Below, piece by piece: positions 30,930 to 44,983 of a DNA stretch of 64,000 bases. The translations under genes and the position numbers were made by a program. Positions within the stretch are counted from its first letter, which is position 1. Each line of letters starts with the position of its first letter. Origin of the DNA: an uncultured Rhodobiaceae bacterium (GTDB lineage: Bacteria; Pseudomonadota; Alphaproteobacteria; Rhizobiales; TMED25); contig CAJWPC010000001.1 of the NCBI GenBank assembly GCA_913045225.1, positions 143,128 through 207,127 of the forward strand. The letters run 5' to 3'. The notes under the pieces are model-generated. The model had not been told where the DNA came from and searched no databases. It saw nothing but the letters and a program-made list of their open reading frames with translations.

Positions 30930-31104
30930 AACCCGTCTCCTGCTAAGTATATTGTGATACTATTACAATAACACTAAACAAGCATATAAAAATTAAAATA
31001 ATATACTTATATCCAAGTAAAAAATAAATGATTATCAATCTATCCATTTTGATAATTTTATTGTCGTATCAGATAAAAAAGCTTTGAATAAATATTTTAA
31101 TTAA

Positions 31105-31380
31105 GGGGGCGTTCTGTTGCCAGGTGCCCCCAAACCCCGCCTTACCTTGCTAGAGGTAAGGGCTTAAGTTTCGGTGCTCAAGCTGACTATGCAGCTACTG
31201 CGACCGGAGCATAGTTGTCATTTGCAACTATAAAATTAGCCCGATAACGGTGGTACAATACCGAGTAAAAGGTAGCCTTTTACGCTCTCGTCGATCCTGT
31301 TTCGCCCCCATAATTTTTAATGGTGGAGGCGCCGGGTACCGCCCCCGGGTCCGATAAGTTTATTTTGACGCCAATTTATT
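31105..31380 (-). ncRNA. ssrA: Two-piece (permuted) tmRNA
   Basis: Read on the - strand, an acceptor piece comes first and ends at CCA (31321-31323), with T-stem CCGGG/CCCGG. After a spacer of about eleven bases the coding piece begins at about 31309 with GGGGGCGAAACAGGATCGACG, the standard tmRNA 5' motif. The 7-bp acceptor stem GGGGGCG pairs with CGCCTCC and contains the G3-U70 alanine identity pair. The tag frame at 31187-31225 reads ANDNYAPVAVAA followed by TAG. The coding piece ends in a hairpin GGGGGC...GCCCCC at 31105. The 5' end of the acceptor piece (set near 31380) is uncertain. tmRNA rescues stalled ribosomes. Confidence 0.96.
31187..31225 (-). other. tmRNA proteolysis tag reading frame ANDNYAPVAVAA
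   Basis: Twelve sense codons from the resume GCA (31223-31225) to GCA, then TAG at 31187-31189. The tag begins AND and ends VAVAA. The last residues would be seen by ClpX and the N-terminal part by SspB. The bases before the resume codon are TATAGTT, similar to the upstream region of other tmRNAs. Confidence 0.92.
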
Positions 31381-31398
31381 ACCATAGCTCAAAGAGCA

Positions 31399-31425
31399 GA
31401 ACTATAATAATCCCAAATACGTATC
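31399..31425 (-). promoter_or_regulatory. Possible tmRNA promoter
   Basis: On the - strand TTGATA is followed, 15 bases later, by TATAGT, about 20-30 bases before the acceptor piece. The spacing is shorter than the ideal 17, so the match is imperfect. Confidence 0.3.
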
Positions 31426-31450
31426 AAATAAAGTTTATAATAAATTTATT

Positions 31451-37469: not shown

Positions 37470-38375
37470 ATGTCAAATTATAGCTCAATTCTTATTTCAG
37501 GTCCAACAGCTTCTGGGAAGTCTCAGCTGGCAGTTCGGTTGGCAAAAATCTATGATGGTGTGGTAATTAACGCTGACGCCATGCAAATATATGATGTACT
37601 TTCAATTATAACTGCTCGACCAAACATCAAATCTCAAGACGGCGTTCCACACTTTTTGTATGGTTATGTTAATCCTCAAATAAGGTATTCAGTCGGTGAA
37701 TGGCAAAAAGATATTGCAAGATTACTCGTATTCTTAGAGAAAATAAATATTTTACCTATAATTGTCGGTGGGACAGGATTATATTTTTCTGGGTTACTGG
37801 GTGAAATAGCTGAAATACCAAATATTTCTCAAGAAATAAGAAGCAAATGGTTGAAAGTTAAAGATGAAAATGACACGCATTATCTTCATAAATACCTAAA
37901 AAAAATAGATCCAAAATCATACAAAAAGATCAATCCAAATGATCCATCAAGAATTTTACGCGCCATTGAAGTTTATGAGCAGACTGGTGTTTCAATTCAG
38001 GATTGGCAAGAAAATGCGGGTATTCGACTCATAGAAAAGTCAAAGTCAAAATTTATTTATCTCTGCCCCAACAAGGATAATCTGCATTTTAATATCGAAA
38101 ATAGAACAGCCCAAATGTTATCGAGTGAAGAGCTGTATAGAGAGGTTAGCGATCTTCGTAAACTTAAAGTCCCATCTGCCTATCCATTAATGAAAGCAAT
38201 TGGTGTAAGAGAAGTCATCGATTTAATTGATGGTAAAACTAATCAAGATCAAGTAAAAATTAGCATAAATAATCAAACAAAAAGATACGTAAAAAGACAA
38301 ATAACATGGGCACGAAAAAAAATGGTTGATTGGAACTGGATTGATGACGAAAAACAAATTTCTGAACTCTTATAA
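37470..38375 (+). CDS. miaA: tRNA dimethylallyltransferase MiaA
   Basis: A 301-residue enzyme that adds a dimethylallyl group to A37 of tRNAs reading codons that start with U. The P-loop GPTASGKSQLA is at about residues 10-20, with VINADAMQIY, the GGTGLYFSGLL block and the C-terminal RYVKRQITWARK. Divergent from serB with a 23-base gap. It precedes the ilv promoter directly. Confidence 0.95.
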   Translation: MSNYSSILISGPTASGKSQLAVRLAKIYDGVVINADAMQIYDVLSIITARPNIKSQDGVPHFLYGYVNPQIRYSVGEWQKDIARLLVFLEKINILPIIVGGTGLYFSGLLGEIAEIPNISQEIRSKWLKVKDENDTHYLHKYLKKIDPKSYKKINPNDPSRILRAIEVYEQTGVSIQDWQENAGIRLIEKSKSKFIYLCPNKDNLHFNIENRTAQMLSSEELYREVSDLRKLKVPSAYPLMKAIGVREVIDLIDGKTNQDQVKISINNQTKRYVKRQITWARKKMVDWNWIDDEKQISELL

Positions 38376-38381
38376 AAAAAA

Positions 38382-38410
38382 TTGATTAATTTTTCTTTAT
38401 GAAATATATT
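38382..38410 (+). promoter_or_regulatory. Strong-looking sigma70-type promoter for ilvB-ilvH-ilvC-leuA
   Basis: TTGATT (38382-38387) is separated by exactly 17 bases from TATATT (38405-38410). Transcription would start near 38417, some 25 bases before the leader-peptide start. This is the best-spaced promoter match in the window. Confidence 0.6.
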
Positions 38411-38442
38411 GAGATATAAATTTAATATTAATGGATTAAATG

Positions 38443-38487
38443 ATGTACTTAAATAGAAATCTGCTGGTCGTCTTCTGTATCACCTGA
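38443..38487 (+). CDS. ilv leader peptide MYLNRNLLVVFCIT
   Basis: A 14-codon ORF upstream of ilvB. ATG at 38443 (another ATG directly before it at 38440) encodes MYLNRNLLVVFCIT, with consecutive Leu-Leu-Val-Val, then Ile and Thr, ending in TGA at 38485-38487. The codon content matches the end products of the downstream genes (Leu, Val, Ile). The ribosome site is weak. The last codons lie within the first arm of the hairpin at 38477-38515, so ribosome position can affect RNA folding. Confidence 0.75.
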   Translation: MYLNRNLLVVFCIT

Positions 38488-38543
38488 GTCCCCCGAGGGT
38501 TCTTAATGGTGATACTTTGATAGGGGCAAACGCCCCTTTTTTT
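38477..38543 (+). terminator. Attenuator: leader hairpin and intrinsic terminator before ilvB
   Basis: GTATCACC (38477-38484) pairs perfectly with GGTGATAC (38508-38515). Downstream, AGGGGC (38522-38527) and GCCCCT (38532-38537) form a 6-bp stem with loop AAAC, followed by seven T (38537-38543), a classic intrinsic terminator. CCCCC at 38490-38494 could pair with GGGG at 38523-38526 as a competing structure. The ilvB ATG is 50 bases after the T-run. Leader peptide, hairpin and terminator are the layout of attenuation. Confidence 0.72.
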
Positions 38544-38592
38544 AATTTTGGGTATATCTTTATGAAAATTTTTTTTAAAAAAGGTAATAAGA

Positions 38593-40353
38593 ATGGGTAA
38601 AAAAATTACAGGAGCAGAAATGGTAATTCAAACACTTCATGATCAGGGTGTTGAGTCTGTTTTTGGTTATCCGGGTGGTGCAGTACTTCCAATTTATGAC
38701 GCTATATTTCAGCAGGAAAATGTAAAGCATATCCTTGTACGTCATGAACAGGGTGCATCACATGCAGCAGAAGGTTATGCCCGTTCAACCGGTAATGTTG
38801 GTGTTCTCATCGTGACTTCGGGGCCAGGGGCTACAAATGCCGTAACTGGGCTTACAGATGCTTTACTGGACTCTATACCTATTGTTTGCATAAGTGGGCA
38901 GGTACCAACACATCTCATTGGAACTGATGCATTCCAAGAGGCCGATACTGTTGGTATTACAAGAGCATGCACTAAGCATAATTGGTTGGTTAAAGATATT
39001 AAAGATCTACCACGTATTATGCATGAGGCATTCTATATTGCGAGATCAGGTCGTCCTGGTCCGGTTTTGGTGGATATTCCAAAAGATATACAATTCGCAG
39101 AGGGTGAATACGAGAATTTATCTAAAACAACTCATAAAACATACACGCCTCCAAGTACAATTGATAGTAAAGCTGTTTCGGCCGTTGTAGACCTTATGCA
39201 AAGGGCCAAGAGGCCAATTATATACTCAGGCGGGGGTATAATAAATTCAGGTCCTAAAGCATCAAAATTATTACAAAAATTTGTACAAAAAACTAATATG
39301 CCAATTACATCAACGTTAATGGGTCTCGGCGCTTATCCAGGTTCAGGAGACAATTGGCTCGGTATGTTGGGCATGCATGGCACCTATGAAGCAAATATGG
39401 CGATGCATGATTGTGATTTAATGCTATGCATTGGTGCGAGGTTTGATGACAGAATTACAGGAAAAATTGATGAATTTTCCCCAAAATCAAAAAAAATTCA
39501 TGTAGATATAGACGCAACGTCAATAAATAAAAATGTTGAAGTAGACCTATCTATTATTGCTGACTGCGGTAAATTCCTTAATGAAGTACTCAAAATTATG
39601 GAAAATAGAAATAATAAATTCCAATCCTACGATTTATGGTGGAAGCAAATTGATTCATGGAAAAAAGTGAATTGCCTGCAATATAAAGCAAATTCAGATG
39701 TAATCATGCCACAATATGCTATCCAAAGATTGTATGAATTAACAAAAAATAAAGATACATACATTACGACTGAAGTCGGACAACATCAAATGTGGGCAGC
39801 ACAATTTTATAAATTCGATAAACCAAATCGATGGCTAACATCAGGGGGTTTGGGCACTATGGGTTATGGCTTCCCTGCTGCAAACGGTGTTCAGGTTGCG
39901 AAGCCCGACGCGCTGGTTATAGATATTGCTGGAGATGCATCAATACTGATGAATATTCAGGAGCTTTCAACAGCGGTTCAATATCAACTTAACACAAAGA
40001 TCTTTATTTTGAATAATAGCTACATGGGGATGGTCAGGCAATGGCAACAGTTATTACACGGTAATCGAATTTCTGAGAGTTACTCTGACTCATTACCAGA
40101 TTTTGTGAAGCTTGCAGAGGCTTACGGTGCAACTGGTATACGTGCGAAAAAGCCAGCTGAACTTGATGATGCAATTTTGGAGATGATCGATACGCCAGGA
40201 CCTGTTATTTTTGACTGCGTTGTTGCAAATCTTGAAAATTGTTTTCCAATGATTCCATCAGGTAAGGCTCATAATGATATGTTACTTGGTGAGAATGTAT
40301 CTGATGAAGAAGTAGCAAACGCTATTGATGATGATGGAAAAATAATGGTTTGA
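38593..40353 (+). CDS. ilvB: Acetolactate synthase large subunit
   Basis: A 586-residue ThDP, Mg2+ and FAD-dependent enzyme that makes acetolactate or acetohydroxybutyrate for Val, Leu and Ile. The catalytic Glu is E52 in RHEQGASHAAEG. SGPGATNAVTGL, the FAD part and the ThDP-binding motif DIAGDASILMNIQELSTA...NNSYMGMVRQWQ are complete. It is the first gene after the attenuator and is followed by ilvH. Confidence 0.96.
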   Translation: MGKKITGAEMVIQTLHDQGVESVFGYPGGAVLPIYDAIFQQENVKHILVRHEQGASHAAEGYARSTGNVGVLIVTSGPGATNAVTGLTDALLDSIPIVCISGQVPTHLIGTDAFQEADTVGITRACTKHNWLVKDIKDLPRIMHEAFYIARSGRPGPVLVDIPKDIQFAEGEYENLSKTTHKTYTPPSTIDSKAVSAVVDLMQRAKRPIIYSGGGIINSGPKASKLLQKFVQKTNMPITSTLMGLGAYPGSGDNWLGMLGMHGTYEANMAMHDCDLMLCIGARFDDRITGKIDEFSPKSKKIHVDIDATSINKNVEVDLSIIADCGKFLNEVLKIMENRNNKFQSYDLWWKQIDSWKKVNCLQYKANSDVIMPQYAIQRLYELTKNKDTYITTEVGQHQMWAAQFYKFDKPNRWLTSGGLGTMGYGFPAANGVQVAKPDALVIDIAGDASILMNIQELSTAVQYQLNTKIFILNNSYMGMVRQWQQLLHGNRISESYSDSLPDFVKLAEAYGATGIRAKKPAELDDAILEMIDTPGPVIFDCVVANLENCFPMIPSGKAHNDMLLGENVSDEEVANAIDDDGKIMV

Positions 40354-40376
40354 AAATTAATTTATGAGTGAATGAA

Positions 40377-40934
40377 ATGAACAAGAAAAATCCTGCTTCA
40401 ACTTATGATATCATCTCAATAAATGAAGATGATGAAAGACATACATTATCTATTATTGTTGACGACGAACCAGGCGTTTTAGCAAGAGTCATTGGGCTCT
40501 TTGCTGCGAGAGGATTTAATATTGACTCGCTCACTGTGTCTGAAACAGAAAGCAAACAGCAACTATCCAGAATTACACTTGTAACATCTGGATCGCCAAG
40601 TGTAATTGAAAAAATAAAAGTTCAAGTTGATAGGCTGGTTTCCGTTCACAGAGTGGCAGATCTTACAGCTGATTATGGTCAATATGGAGCTCTCGAGAGA
40701 GAGCTAGCGTTAATAAAAGTAAAAGGGACAGGAAACAAAAGGCTTGAGGCATTAAGATTGGCCGAAGCATTTGATGCTCAAACAGTTGATGCGAGCCTTG
40801 ATAGTTTTGTTTTTCAAATAACAGGACGAACCCGTGAAATTGATAGATTTATTAATTTAATGGCTAGTGTAGGGCTTACAGAAGTATCAAGAACTGGTGT
40901 GGCTGCGCTAAAAAGGGGTGCTGGAAGCACATAA
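40377..40934 (+). CDS. ilvH: Acetolactate synthase small (regulatory) subunit
   Basis: A 185-residue regulatory subunit that activates the large subunit and confers valine feedback. ACT domain motif: HTLSIIVDDEPGVLARVIGLFAARGFNIDSLTV, then the C-terminal domain with ELALIKV and the ending TEVSRTGVAALKRG. I use ATG 40377; a GTG at 40368 is an alternative three codons upstream. It lies 23 bases after ilvB. Confidence 0.95.
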   Translation: MNKKNPASTYDIISINEDDERHTLSIIVDDEPGVLARVIGLFAARGFNIDSLTVSETESKQQLSRITLVTSGSPSVIEKIKVQVDRLVSVHRVADLTADYGQYGALERELALIKVKGTGNKRLEALRLAEAFDAQTVDASLDSFVFQITGRTREIDRFINLMASVGLTEVSRTGVAALKRGAGST

Positions 40935-40975: not shown

Positions 40976-42010
<1,035 letters not shown>

Positions 42011-42016
42011 GGTTAG

Positions 42017-43546
42017 ATGAGCTCCGAAGATAACCATATAAGAATATTTGATACAACTCTACGTGATGGTGAGCAATCACCAGGCGCGACAATGACACTT
42101 GATGAGAAAATTCAGGTTGCAGAATTATTAGACGATATGGGTGTTGATATAATCGAAGCTGGATTCCCCATTGCTTCAAACGGTGACTTTGAAGCTGTAT
42201 CAAAAATTGCTGAAAGATCACAAAATTCTATTATCGCAGGACTGGCAAGGGCGATTCCTGAGGATATTGACAGAGCAGGTGAAGCAGTAAAAAAAGCAAA
42301 AAGAGGTAGAATTCACACGTTTGTCTCCACATCCCCTATACATCTTGAACACCAAATGAAAAAAAACGAAGAAGAAGTTCTAGAAATCATAAAAAAAACA
42401 GTCACCTTGGCAAGGAACTATGTTGAAGATGTCGAATGGTCAGGCATGGATGCAACAAGAACATCTATCGATTTTTTGTGTAAATGTTGTGAAGTAGCAA
42501 TAAAGAATGGTGCAACTACTATCAATATACCGGATACGGTCGGATACGCCATCCCTCGTGAGTTCAATAATTTGATTAAAACCTTACGGGAAAAAGTACC
42601 AGGCGCGGATGAAGTTATTTTTTCTACACACTGTCATAATGACCTTGGCCTAGCTGTGGCCAATTCTTTAGCAGGTGTCGATGCCGGCGCAAGACAGATT
42701 GAATGCACAATAAACGGACTGGGAGAAAGGGCAGGAAATGCGGCACTGGAAGAGGTTGTTATGGCGATTAATACTCGTTCTGATGCGTTACCTTACACAA
42801 CAAAAATTGATACAACAAAAATACTGCGAGCATCAAAGCTCGTATCTGCTATAACATCTTTTCCAGTCCAGTATAACAAAGCTATCGTTGGAAAAAATGC
42901 TTTTGCACATGAGTCTGGCATTCATCAAGATGGGATGCTGAAGAATAGCCAGACATACGAGATAATGAACCCCGAAGCTATTGGTCTTAAGGAGTCGTCA
43001 CTAGTAATGGGAAAACACTCGGGAAGGCATGCCTTTAGAGAAAAATTAGCAGATCTTGGATATAAACTTGGTGATAATGCATTTCAAGATGCGTTTGACA
43101 GATTTAAGACGCTTGCTGATAAAAAGAAGAATATTTACGATGAGGATATTATGGCTCTCGTCGATGATGAAATTTCAAGTACAAGCGAGAGACTAAAGTT
43201 TAAATCACTTATCGTGAATGCGGGAACGCAAGGACCACAAAGTGCAGAGCTTGAGATGGAAGTTGATGGTGAAATCATGAAAAATAAATCAACGGGCGAT
43301 GGGCCTGTAGATGCAATATTTAATTGTATAAAATCCATATTTCCTCATGAGGCATCCCTACCATTATACCAAGTTCAAGCAGTAACAGAGGGAACGGATG
43401 CACAAGCCGAAGTTAGTGTTAGACTGGAAGATGAGGGTATATCTTTCACCGGTAGGGGGGCAGATACAGACACACTAGTAGCCTCGGCAAGAGCATACAT
43501 CAGCGCACTAAATAGGTTGCTTATCGCAAAAGAGCGATCAAATTAA
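42017..43546 (+). CDS. leuA: 2-isopropylmalate synthase LeuA
   Basis: A 509-residue enzyme condensing acetyl-CoA with 2-oxoisovalerate, the committed step to leucine. The catalytic barrel starts IFDTTLRDGEQSPGATM (about residues 10-26) and includes HCHNDLGLAVANS and NGLGERAGNAALEEV. The C-terminal LeuA dimer domain, which gives leucine feedback inhibition, is intact. It starts 6 bases after ilvC, so it is in the same operon, and ends 7 bases before a tRNA gene. Confidence 0.95.
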   Translation: MSSEDNHIRIFDTTLRDGEQSPGATMTLDEKIQVAELLDDMGVDIIEAGFPIASNGDFEAVSKIAERSQNSIIAGLARAIPEDIDRAGEAVKKAKRGRIHTFVSTSPIHLEHQMKKNEEEVLEIIKKTVTLARNYVEDVEWSGMDATRTSIDFLCKCCEVAIKNGATTINIPDTVGYAIPREFNNLIKTLREKVPGADEVIFSTHCHNDLGLAVANSLAGVDAGARQIECTINGLGERAGNAALEEVVMAINTRSDALPYTTKIDTTKILRASKLVSAITSFPVQYNKAIVGKNAFAHESGIHQDGMLKNSQTYEIMNPEAIGLKESSLVMGKHSGRHAFREKLADLGYKLGDNAFQDAFDRFKTLADKKKNIYDEDIMALVDDEISSTSERLKFKSLIVNAGTQGPQSAELEMEVDGEIMKNKSTGDGPVDAIFNCIKSIFPHEASLPLYQVQAVTEGTDAQAEVSVRLEDEGISFTGRGADTDTLVASARAYISALNRLLIAKERSN

Positions 43547-43553
43547 TCATATT

Positions 43554-43629
<76 letters not shown>

Positions 43630-43777: not shown

Positions 43778-44983
43778 ATGTTAAGAATGTTTATGTTTGT
43801 ACTCGCTTTTGTAACTTTTGGTATTGCTAACGCTGAAGCTAAAGATATAAAAGTTGGTATTATTTTAGGCTTTACAGGCCCAATTGAATCGTTGACTCCT
43901 GATATGGCTGCTGGTGCAGAACTTGCATTTGCGGAAGCCTCAGACTCAGGAGCTCTATTAGGTGGATCAACCATTTCTGTAAGTAGAGCTGACTCAACTT
44001 GCATTGACTCCGCAGCAGCAACTACTGCAGCTGAAGGTTTAGTAAGTGAAGGTGTTACTGCTATTGTTGGTGCTGACTGTTCAGGTGTAACAGGTGCTGT
44101 ACTTGCAAACGTTGCTGTACCTAAGGGTGTGCCGATGATTTCACCATCTGCGACATCACCTGCATTAACAACAGCAGAGGACAATGGACTATTTTTTAGA
44201 ACAGCACCGTCCGACGCAAGAGGGGGTGAAGTTTTGGCAGATATCACTGCTGATAGAGGTGTGAGTAGTGTTGCGATAACTTATGTTAATACTGACTATG
44301 GTGTTGGTTTGGCTGATGTTTACGAAGCGGCAGCGGAAGCAAGAGGAATTGAAGTAACAACAAAAACACCACATGAAGGCGATAAAGCTGACTACAGTGC
44401 TGAAGTTGGCGTATTATCATCTGCTGGCGGTGATGCTCTTGTTGTTGTTGGATATCTGGACCAAGGCGGTAACCAAATCATAAGGGGTTCACTTGATACT
44501 GGTGCATTTGATACATTTATCTTATCAGATGGTATGATTGGTGACTCTTTAACTGATGCTTTTGGTTCTGAACTTAATGGATCTTTCGGCTCTATGCCAG
44601 GTTCGACAAGTCCAGGTGCGCTAAAATTTGCTGAATATGCAGAAGCAAATGGCGTAAATCCATCTGTATATGTTGGTGAGTCATATGACGCAGCTGCACT
44701 AATTGTATTAGCAATGGCATCAGCAGACTGTGACATCAGTGGTTGTGCTGGTTCTGATGACAGCGCATCTATAGCCGATAATATTTTAAGTGTTGCAAAC
44801 GGACCTGGTGTAAAAATATACGCCGGTGAGCTTGCTAAGGGTATCAGACTTGCAAGCGCTGGTAATGCTATAAACTACGAAGGCGCAACCGATGTTAACT
44901 TCACAGATGGTGGGGAGGCATTCGGTGCATTCTTAGAAAAGGCAATTGAAGGCGGTTCATTTGTGAATGCTTCACAAAGATAA
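43778..44983 (+). CDS. livJ: Branched-chain amino acid ABC transporter substrate-binding protein
   Basis: A 401-residue periplasmic binding protein of the Liv (PBP type I) fold. The signal peptide MLRMFMFVLAFVTFGIANAEA is followed by KVGIILGFTGPIESLTPDMAAGAELAF, typical of LivJ. The ribosome site AAAGGGAG is strong. Codon use is richer in GC than its neighbours, as seen for highly expressed genes. The partner permeases and ATPases are on the opposite strand, convergent with it. Substrate (Leu/Ile/Val, or other amino acid or amide) is inferred from context only. Confidence 0.92.
   Translation: MLRMFMFVLAFVTFGIANAEAKDIKVGIILGFTGPIESLTPDMAAGAELAFAEASDSGALLGGSTISVSRADSTCIDSAAATTAAEGLVSEGVTAIVGADCSGVTGAVLANVAVPKGVPMISPSATSPALTTAEDNGLFFRTAPSDARGGEVLADITADRGVSSVAITYVNTDYGVGLADVYEAAAEARGIEVTTKTPHEGDKADYSAEVGVLSSAGGDALVVVGYLDQGGNQIIRGSLDTGAFDTFILSDGMIGDSLTDAFGSELNGSFGSMPGSTSPGALKFAEYAEANGVNPSVYVGESYDAAALIVLAMASADCDISGCAGSDDSASIADNILSVANGPGVKIYAGELAKGIRLASAGNAINYEGATDVNFTDGGEAFGAFLEKAIEGGSFVNASQR

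Follow-up and report, generated by a model that had tools for sequence, protein, structure and literature searches.

The intergenic region 38376-38592 of the window (the whole 64,000-nucleotide stretch of DNA that was analyzed) separates miaA (37470-38375) from ilvB (38593-40353). According to the original prediction, a promoter, a short leader ORF, a hairpin and an intrinsic terminator located there form a ribosome-mediated attenuator that senses leucine, valine and isoleucine and acts on ilvB-ilvH-ilvC-leuA. Concerning the genes, profile matches confirmed the four identities: ilvB encodes the large subunit of acetolactate synthase (NF006581, 1096.6 bits; TIGR00118) and is followed, with short gaps, by ilvH for the small subunit (40368-40934; TIGR00119/NF008864), the true start of which lies probably some 20 codons inside that ORF, ilvC for ketol-acid reductoisomerase (40991-42010; NF004017, TIGR00465) and leuA for 2-isopropylmalate synthase (42017-43546; NF002087, TIGR00973). 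An ilvB gene was present in every searched member of the genus. The regulatory parts span 38382-38543, directly upstream of the operon; each was found where it had been placed and, like the four genes, they lie on the plus strand.

With respect to the surroundings, a tRNA-Lys gene (anticodon CTT, 43554-43626) is located immediately 3′ of leuA on the same strand, and after it comes a branched-chain amino acid ABC transporter-like binding protein (43778-44983). At the other end, miaA, which codes for a tRNA-modifying enzyme, ends just before the ilvB promoter region, and miaA C-terminal-like sequence occurs upstream of ilvB also at the alphaproteobacterial loci L012, L138, L140 and L166. Attenuation in E. 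coli is affected by MiaA.

The promoter-like element TTGATT-N17-TATATT occupies positions 38382-38410. Together with an A-rich lead-in it makes a stretch (38379-38410) with 96% column identity in 11 congeners, the flanks being at 60–64% and the next 29 nt at 60%. As a mere pattern, it did not exceed the expectation from shuffled sequences (2 matches found versus 3.4 expected). No promoter-like conserved block was found downstream of the leader when column identity was considered in the 11 congeners. Transcription is predicted to start near 38417.

The leader ORF (38440-38487, encoding MMYLNRNLLVVFCIT) has two candidate starts, an ATG at 38440 that gives 15 codons and a second one at 38443 that gives 14, both ending at the TGA stop 38485-38487. 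The first ATG is taken as the conserved start, because most relatives read M-I-Y-L-N. The start, the branched-chain amino acid codons and the stop are kept in the genus and the family. Given its clustered Leu, Val and Ile codons and its preservation in 13 genus or family genomes and in many families of Rhizobiales, this short ORF can be considered a putative leader peptide.

The leader stop codon is enclosed by a hairpin (38477-38515) with a fold z of −3.6. Its outer stem of 8 bp pairs GTATCACC (38477-38484) with GGTGATAC (38508-38515), and these arms are 99% and 100% identical in the 11 congeners, while the hairpin interior is only 75% identical. The inner stem, around 38485-38505, differs in sequence between genomes and keeps its pairing, as in GAGTTCA/TGGACTC, GAGACC/GGTTCTC and GAAGATTT/AAATCTTC. 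The intrinsic terminator AGGGGC-AAAC-GCCCCT comes directly after this hairpin; its stem-loop (38522-38537) is followed by six more T that complete the U tract (38522-38543 in all). Covariation had been proposed as a check of both hairpins: it was found in the inner stem of the first, while the terminator turned out to be 96% identical within the genus and replaced in the sister genus by a different but equivalent one, GGGGC-UUAA-GCCCU. As MAFFT misaligned the latter, the stems were read sequence by sequence. The gap between the terminator and ilvB has diverged (73% identity in 11 congeners).

All the parts of the element are kept in the 11 genomes of the genus and in two of the sister genus, in contrast to the diverged stretches between them, and the layout is present in each of the 12 further genomes of the genus or family whose upstream region is intact. 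The sister genus keeps a leader of the form LVVV..(V/I)T before the stop, the outer stem and its own terminator. Beyond the family, 125 Rhizobiales loci with an ilvB start and upstream DNA were considered, and 97 of them showed a leader ORF rich in branched-chain amino acid codons plus an intrinsic terminator, located in nearly all 97 at 20–45 nt after the leader stop; MKNSIVLIVVGKRMGRMV and MRKIVSILVLRGTTIETA are typical leader peptides. For the structural comparisons, one false pick (L108) was dropped, which left 96 loci, and the ORF picks at L005 and L111 were corrected. In these 96 loci, the median gap was 5 nt from control codons to hairpin and 4 nt from hairpin to terminator stem. The hairpin folded well below its shuffles (median z of −4.1), and a strict version of it, for which the outer stem had to be correctly placed and to run for 7 bp or more without interruption, occurred in 72 of the 96 loci versus 2.7 expected from shuffles. 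Among 29 loci from other orders of the class, one (L156) showed the layout on inspection by eye, the automatic scan flagging only the doubtful L150. So, the suggestion of a lineage-specific design does not hold, since the architecture is common to most Rhizobiales and one genome of another order.

Some details of these loci can be recorded separately. At L062, L071 and L099 the terminator of the ilvB leader has a long stem, GACGAGGGGCC-UUCG-GGCCCCUUCGUC, with hardly any U tract. The outer arms are almost invariant in the family under study. AUCACC resembles the anti-Shine-Dalgarno end of 16S rRNA, and GGUGAU an extended Shine-Dalgarno sequence; the outer arms of other families are unrelated to them. 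A role of GGTGAT (38508-38513) as a Shine-Dalgarno-like trap for the 30S subunit was considered and rejected, as this motif is missing in other families.

The conservation of the Leu, Val and Ile codons and of the terminator in relatives, the absence of which would have spoken against the original prediction, together with the conserved promoter and hairpin and the same layout across Rhizobiales, strongly supports ribosome-mediated attenuation sensing Leu, Val and possibly Ile, as far as can be judged from sequence. The element is thus very probably a leader-peptide transcription attenuator of the alphaproteobacterial ilvB type. A riboswitch or a T-box before ilvB can be practically dismissed, as there is no Rfam match at this place and the leader ORF accounts for the conservation. 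The Rfam scan of the whole window gave only tmRNA and tRNA, the former being an alphaproteobacterial permuted (two-piece) tmRNA gene on the minus strand (31103-31436).

The control codons deserve separate consideration. The run CTG CTG GTC GTC (Leu Leu Val Val, 38461-38472) is 96% identical in the genus, and after it there is an Ile codon, ATC (38479-38481), within the pair Ile-Thr (38479-38484). In the 13 genomes of the genus (11) and the sister genus (2), the control positions hold only Leu, Ile or Val. The synonyms used are rare: in the genes of the window, from which alone the codon usage of the source organism was computed, CTG makes up 8% of the Leu codons and GTC 14% of the Val codons. 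Nevertheless, the leaders of this AT-rich family have CTG at 18 of 23 Leu control positions (78%) and GTC at 24 of 28 Val ones. In the genes of GC-rich relatives, CTG (41%) and GTC (47%) are the commonest Leu and Val codons, whereas in their leaders CTG occurs at 2 of 90 (2%) and GTC at 6 of 106 control positions, with CTT, GTA and ATT being preferred; these counts come from related sequences and are therefore not independent. The opposite bias in both groups fits selection for slowly read synonyms. Concerning the tRNAs, the anticodons of tRNA-Leu in the genome are TAA, CAA, TAG and GAG, and no tRNA-Leu with anticodon CAG was found in it, which would leave wobble as the only way to read CTG. 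It can be said that the control codons track rarity, opposite to the codon usage of the genes, rather than base composition.

Another aspect is how a stalled ribosome could prevent termination. In classical attenuators, a strand captures the 5′ arm of the terminator when the ribosome stalls. For the element upstream of ilvB, this would mean a trp-type antiterminator, mutually exclusive with the terminator, that pairs the 5′ arm (38522-38527) with upstream RNA, either as CCCCC (38490-38494) with GGGG (38523-38526), the pairing favored by the original prediction, or in a shifted form as GUCCC (38488-38492) with GGGGC (38523-38527). Both C and G runs exist, and in this genome the 5′ arm pairs weakly (−3.8 kcal/mol) once 38477-38484 is masked. 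A ribosome placed on the last control codon gives this arm a probability of upstream pairing of 0.83, yet one at the stop gives 0.97. The CCCCC:GGGG pairing is not conserved and was rejected as a switch: the nearest relative, G001, with an IlvB 99% identical, reads CCTC and has a pairing energy of about zero, and the CCCCC run is missing in eight further genomes (G003, G004, G007 and G009 to G013), thus in most congeners. A stop-codon hairpin prolonged into the terminator arm (by CUUNU:AGGGG or GUC:GAU) was also considered; such pairings were seen by eye in some genomes and are lost in others, for which they were discarded.

A general pairing test was also run: with the ribosome stalled at the last control codon, the 5′ arm was joined to the RNA that remained free, and the resulting gain in ensemble energy was scored against that of shuffled arms. 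The E. coli thr, trp, leu and phe leaders gained −7.6 to −12.8 kcal/mol (z of −1.6 to −2.9), and four trp leaders of the same order gained −6 to −17 (z of −0.9 to −2.7). The E. coli his, ilvGMEDA and ilvB leaders gave no signal in the same test, which marks its limits and leaves room for a complex or pseudoknotted antiterminator. In opposition to the positive controls, the 96 ilvB leaders showed antiterminator pairing below that of their own shuffles, with a median gain of about −2, a mean z of about +0.5 and only 4% of the loci below −6. Upstream pairing of the 5′ arm was weaker than in shuffles also with the ribosome masked at several positions, and no pairing of the terminator 3′ arm with upstream RNA was found in the ilvB leaders. 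In these leaders, the median probability of upstream pairing of the 5′ arm was 0.26 for a ribosome on the first control codon, 0.43 on the last one and 0.50 at the stop; six of the seven E. coli leaders show instead a drop as the ribosome moves to the stop. So, judged against the E. coli and same-order trp controls, no conserved alternative pairing that sequesters the 5′ arm on stalling was found in the ilvB leaders, and a trp-type antiterminator seems unlikely here. As a side observation, the trpE loci L202 and L206-L209 of other Rhizobiales have WW-rich leader ORFs, and a simple scan did not find an intrinsic terminator downstream of them.

In the static RNA model, the ilvB terminator is predicted to form at every ribosome position, so regulation does not follow from this model by itself. 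This prediction could also suit an independent small RNA or a constitutive premature terminator, the hydrophobic ORF being accidental and amino acid control absent. Such an interpretation is very improbable in view of the branched-chain control codons across Rhizobiales, the fixed distance to the hairpin, the constant position before ilvB and the use of rare synonyms.

For the attenuator, we infer ribosome stalling, read-through and the direction of control as follows. With ample amino acids, the ribosome would pass CTG CTG GTC GTC ATC quickly and reach the stop codon, where it would hold the stop-codon hairpin open, and the terminator would work. In a shortage of charged Leu-, Val- or Ile-tRNA, the ribosome would stall at the control codons, and RNA polymerase would read on into ilvB-ilvH-ilvC-leuA. 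The ribosome covers about 12–13 nt beyond the A-site codon. With this footprint, a stall at the first control codons would free the hairpin, while a ribosome at the stop codon would open it, so the state of the hairpin would differ between starvation and plenty. The hairpin formed on stalling, about 4–6 nt upstream of the terminator stem, may be a steric obstacle to the terminator: for the terminator stem to close at its base, this bulky hairpin would have to be drawn toward the RNA exit channel. This last step is tentative, and the effect of the adjacent hairpin could even have the opposite sign; in PMC8355165, adjacent hairpins elsewhere have been associated with termination and not against it.

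Another way to link the hairpin to read-through would be a tertiary or pseudoknotted antiterminator, or a protein (NusA or a ribosomal protein) recognizing the stop-codon hairpin, either of which would be invisible to nested secondary-structure folding. The strong conservation of the hairpin and of the short, fixed distances on its two sides, and the lack of any other nested pairing, would agree with such an interaction, while the wholly different hairpin sequences of different families (GTATCACC here, GCGCATGGG in Rhizobium-like loci) speak against sequence-specific recognition; a place can be given to it, with doubt. Returning to the steric reading, it may perhaps be extended to the Rhizobiales ilvB attenuators as a class devoid of strand-exchange antiterminator, in which a stop-codon hairpin within about 7 nt of the terminator would block termination on stalling and would be opened by the ribosome at the stop codon, an extension offered with reserve.

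Comparison with known systems places the element among its relatives. Attenuation of ilvBN has been reported in Caulobacter crescentus (Tarleton 1994, as described in PMC4117421), and alphaproteobacterial ilvB/ilvIH leaders have been predicted (Vitreschak 2004, cited in PMC2573895 and PMC1273637), so the attenuator belongs to a known kind, with which it shares a short leader ORF rich in branched-chain amino acid codons, along with an intrinsic terminator, just ahead of the acetolactate synthase operon. It differs from other alphaproteobacterial ilvB attenuators in that the operon goes on into ilvC and leuA and in that the control codons are CTG/GTC rather than CTT/GTA/ATT; Rhizobium-like loci have a different leader peptide sequence and different hairpin arms. 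Like the E. coli trp, thr, leu and phe attenuators, the element combines control codons within a leader peptide, a hairpin close to the leader stop and an intrinsic terminator, although in those the 5′ arm pairs strongly with upstream RNA on stalling and the ilvB leader has no conserved pairing of this sort. In the ‘fast’ attenuator of Corynebacterium glutamicum ilvBNC, antiterminator and terminator share a boundary trinucleotide (PMC11857589). That system is also similar in its branched-chain amino acid leader (with control codons CUU/GUA) and in a hairpin base adjoining the terminator, but no conserved overlap was found here.

That some 95 conserved leaders show no detectable pairing of the antiterminator type represents a gap in the textbook picture of attenuation. 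As for the organism itself, the genome that carries the window is of 1.34 Mb, and amino acid attenuation of the ilv-leu operon would have been retained in this streamlined, AT-rich lineage.
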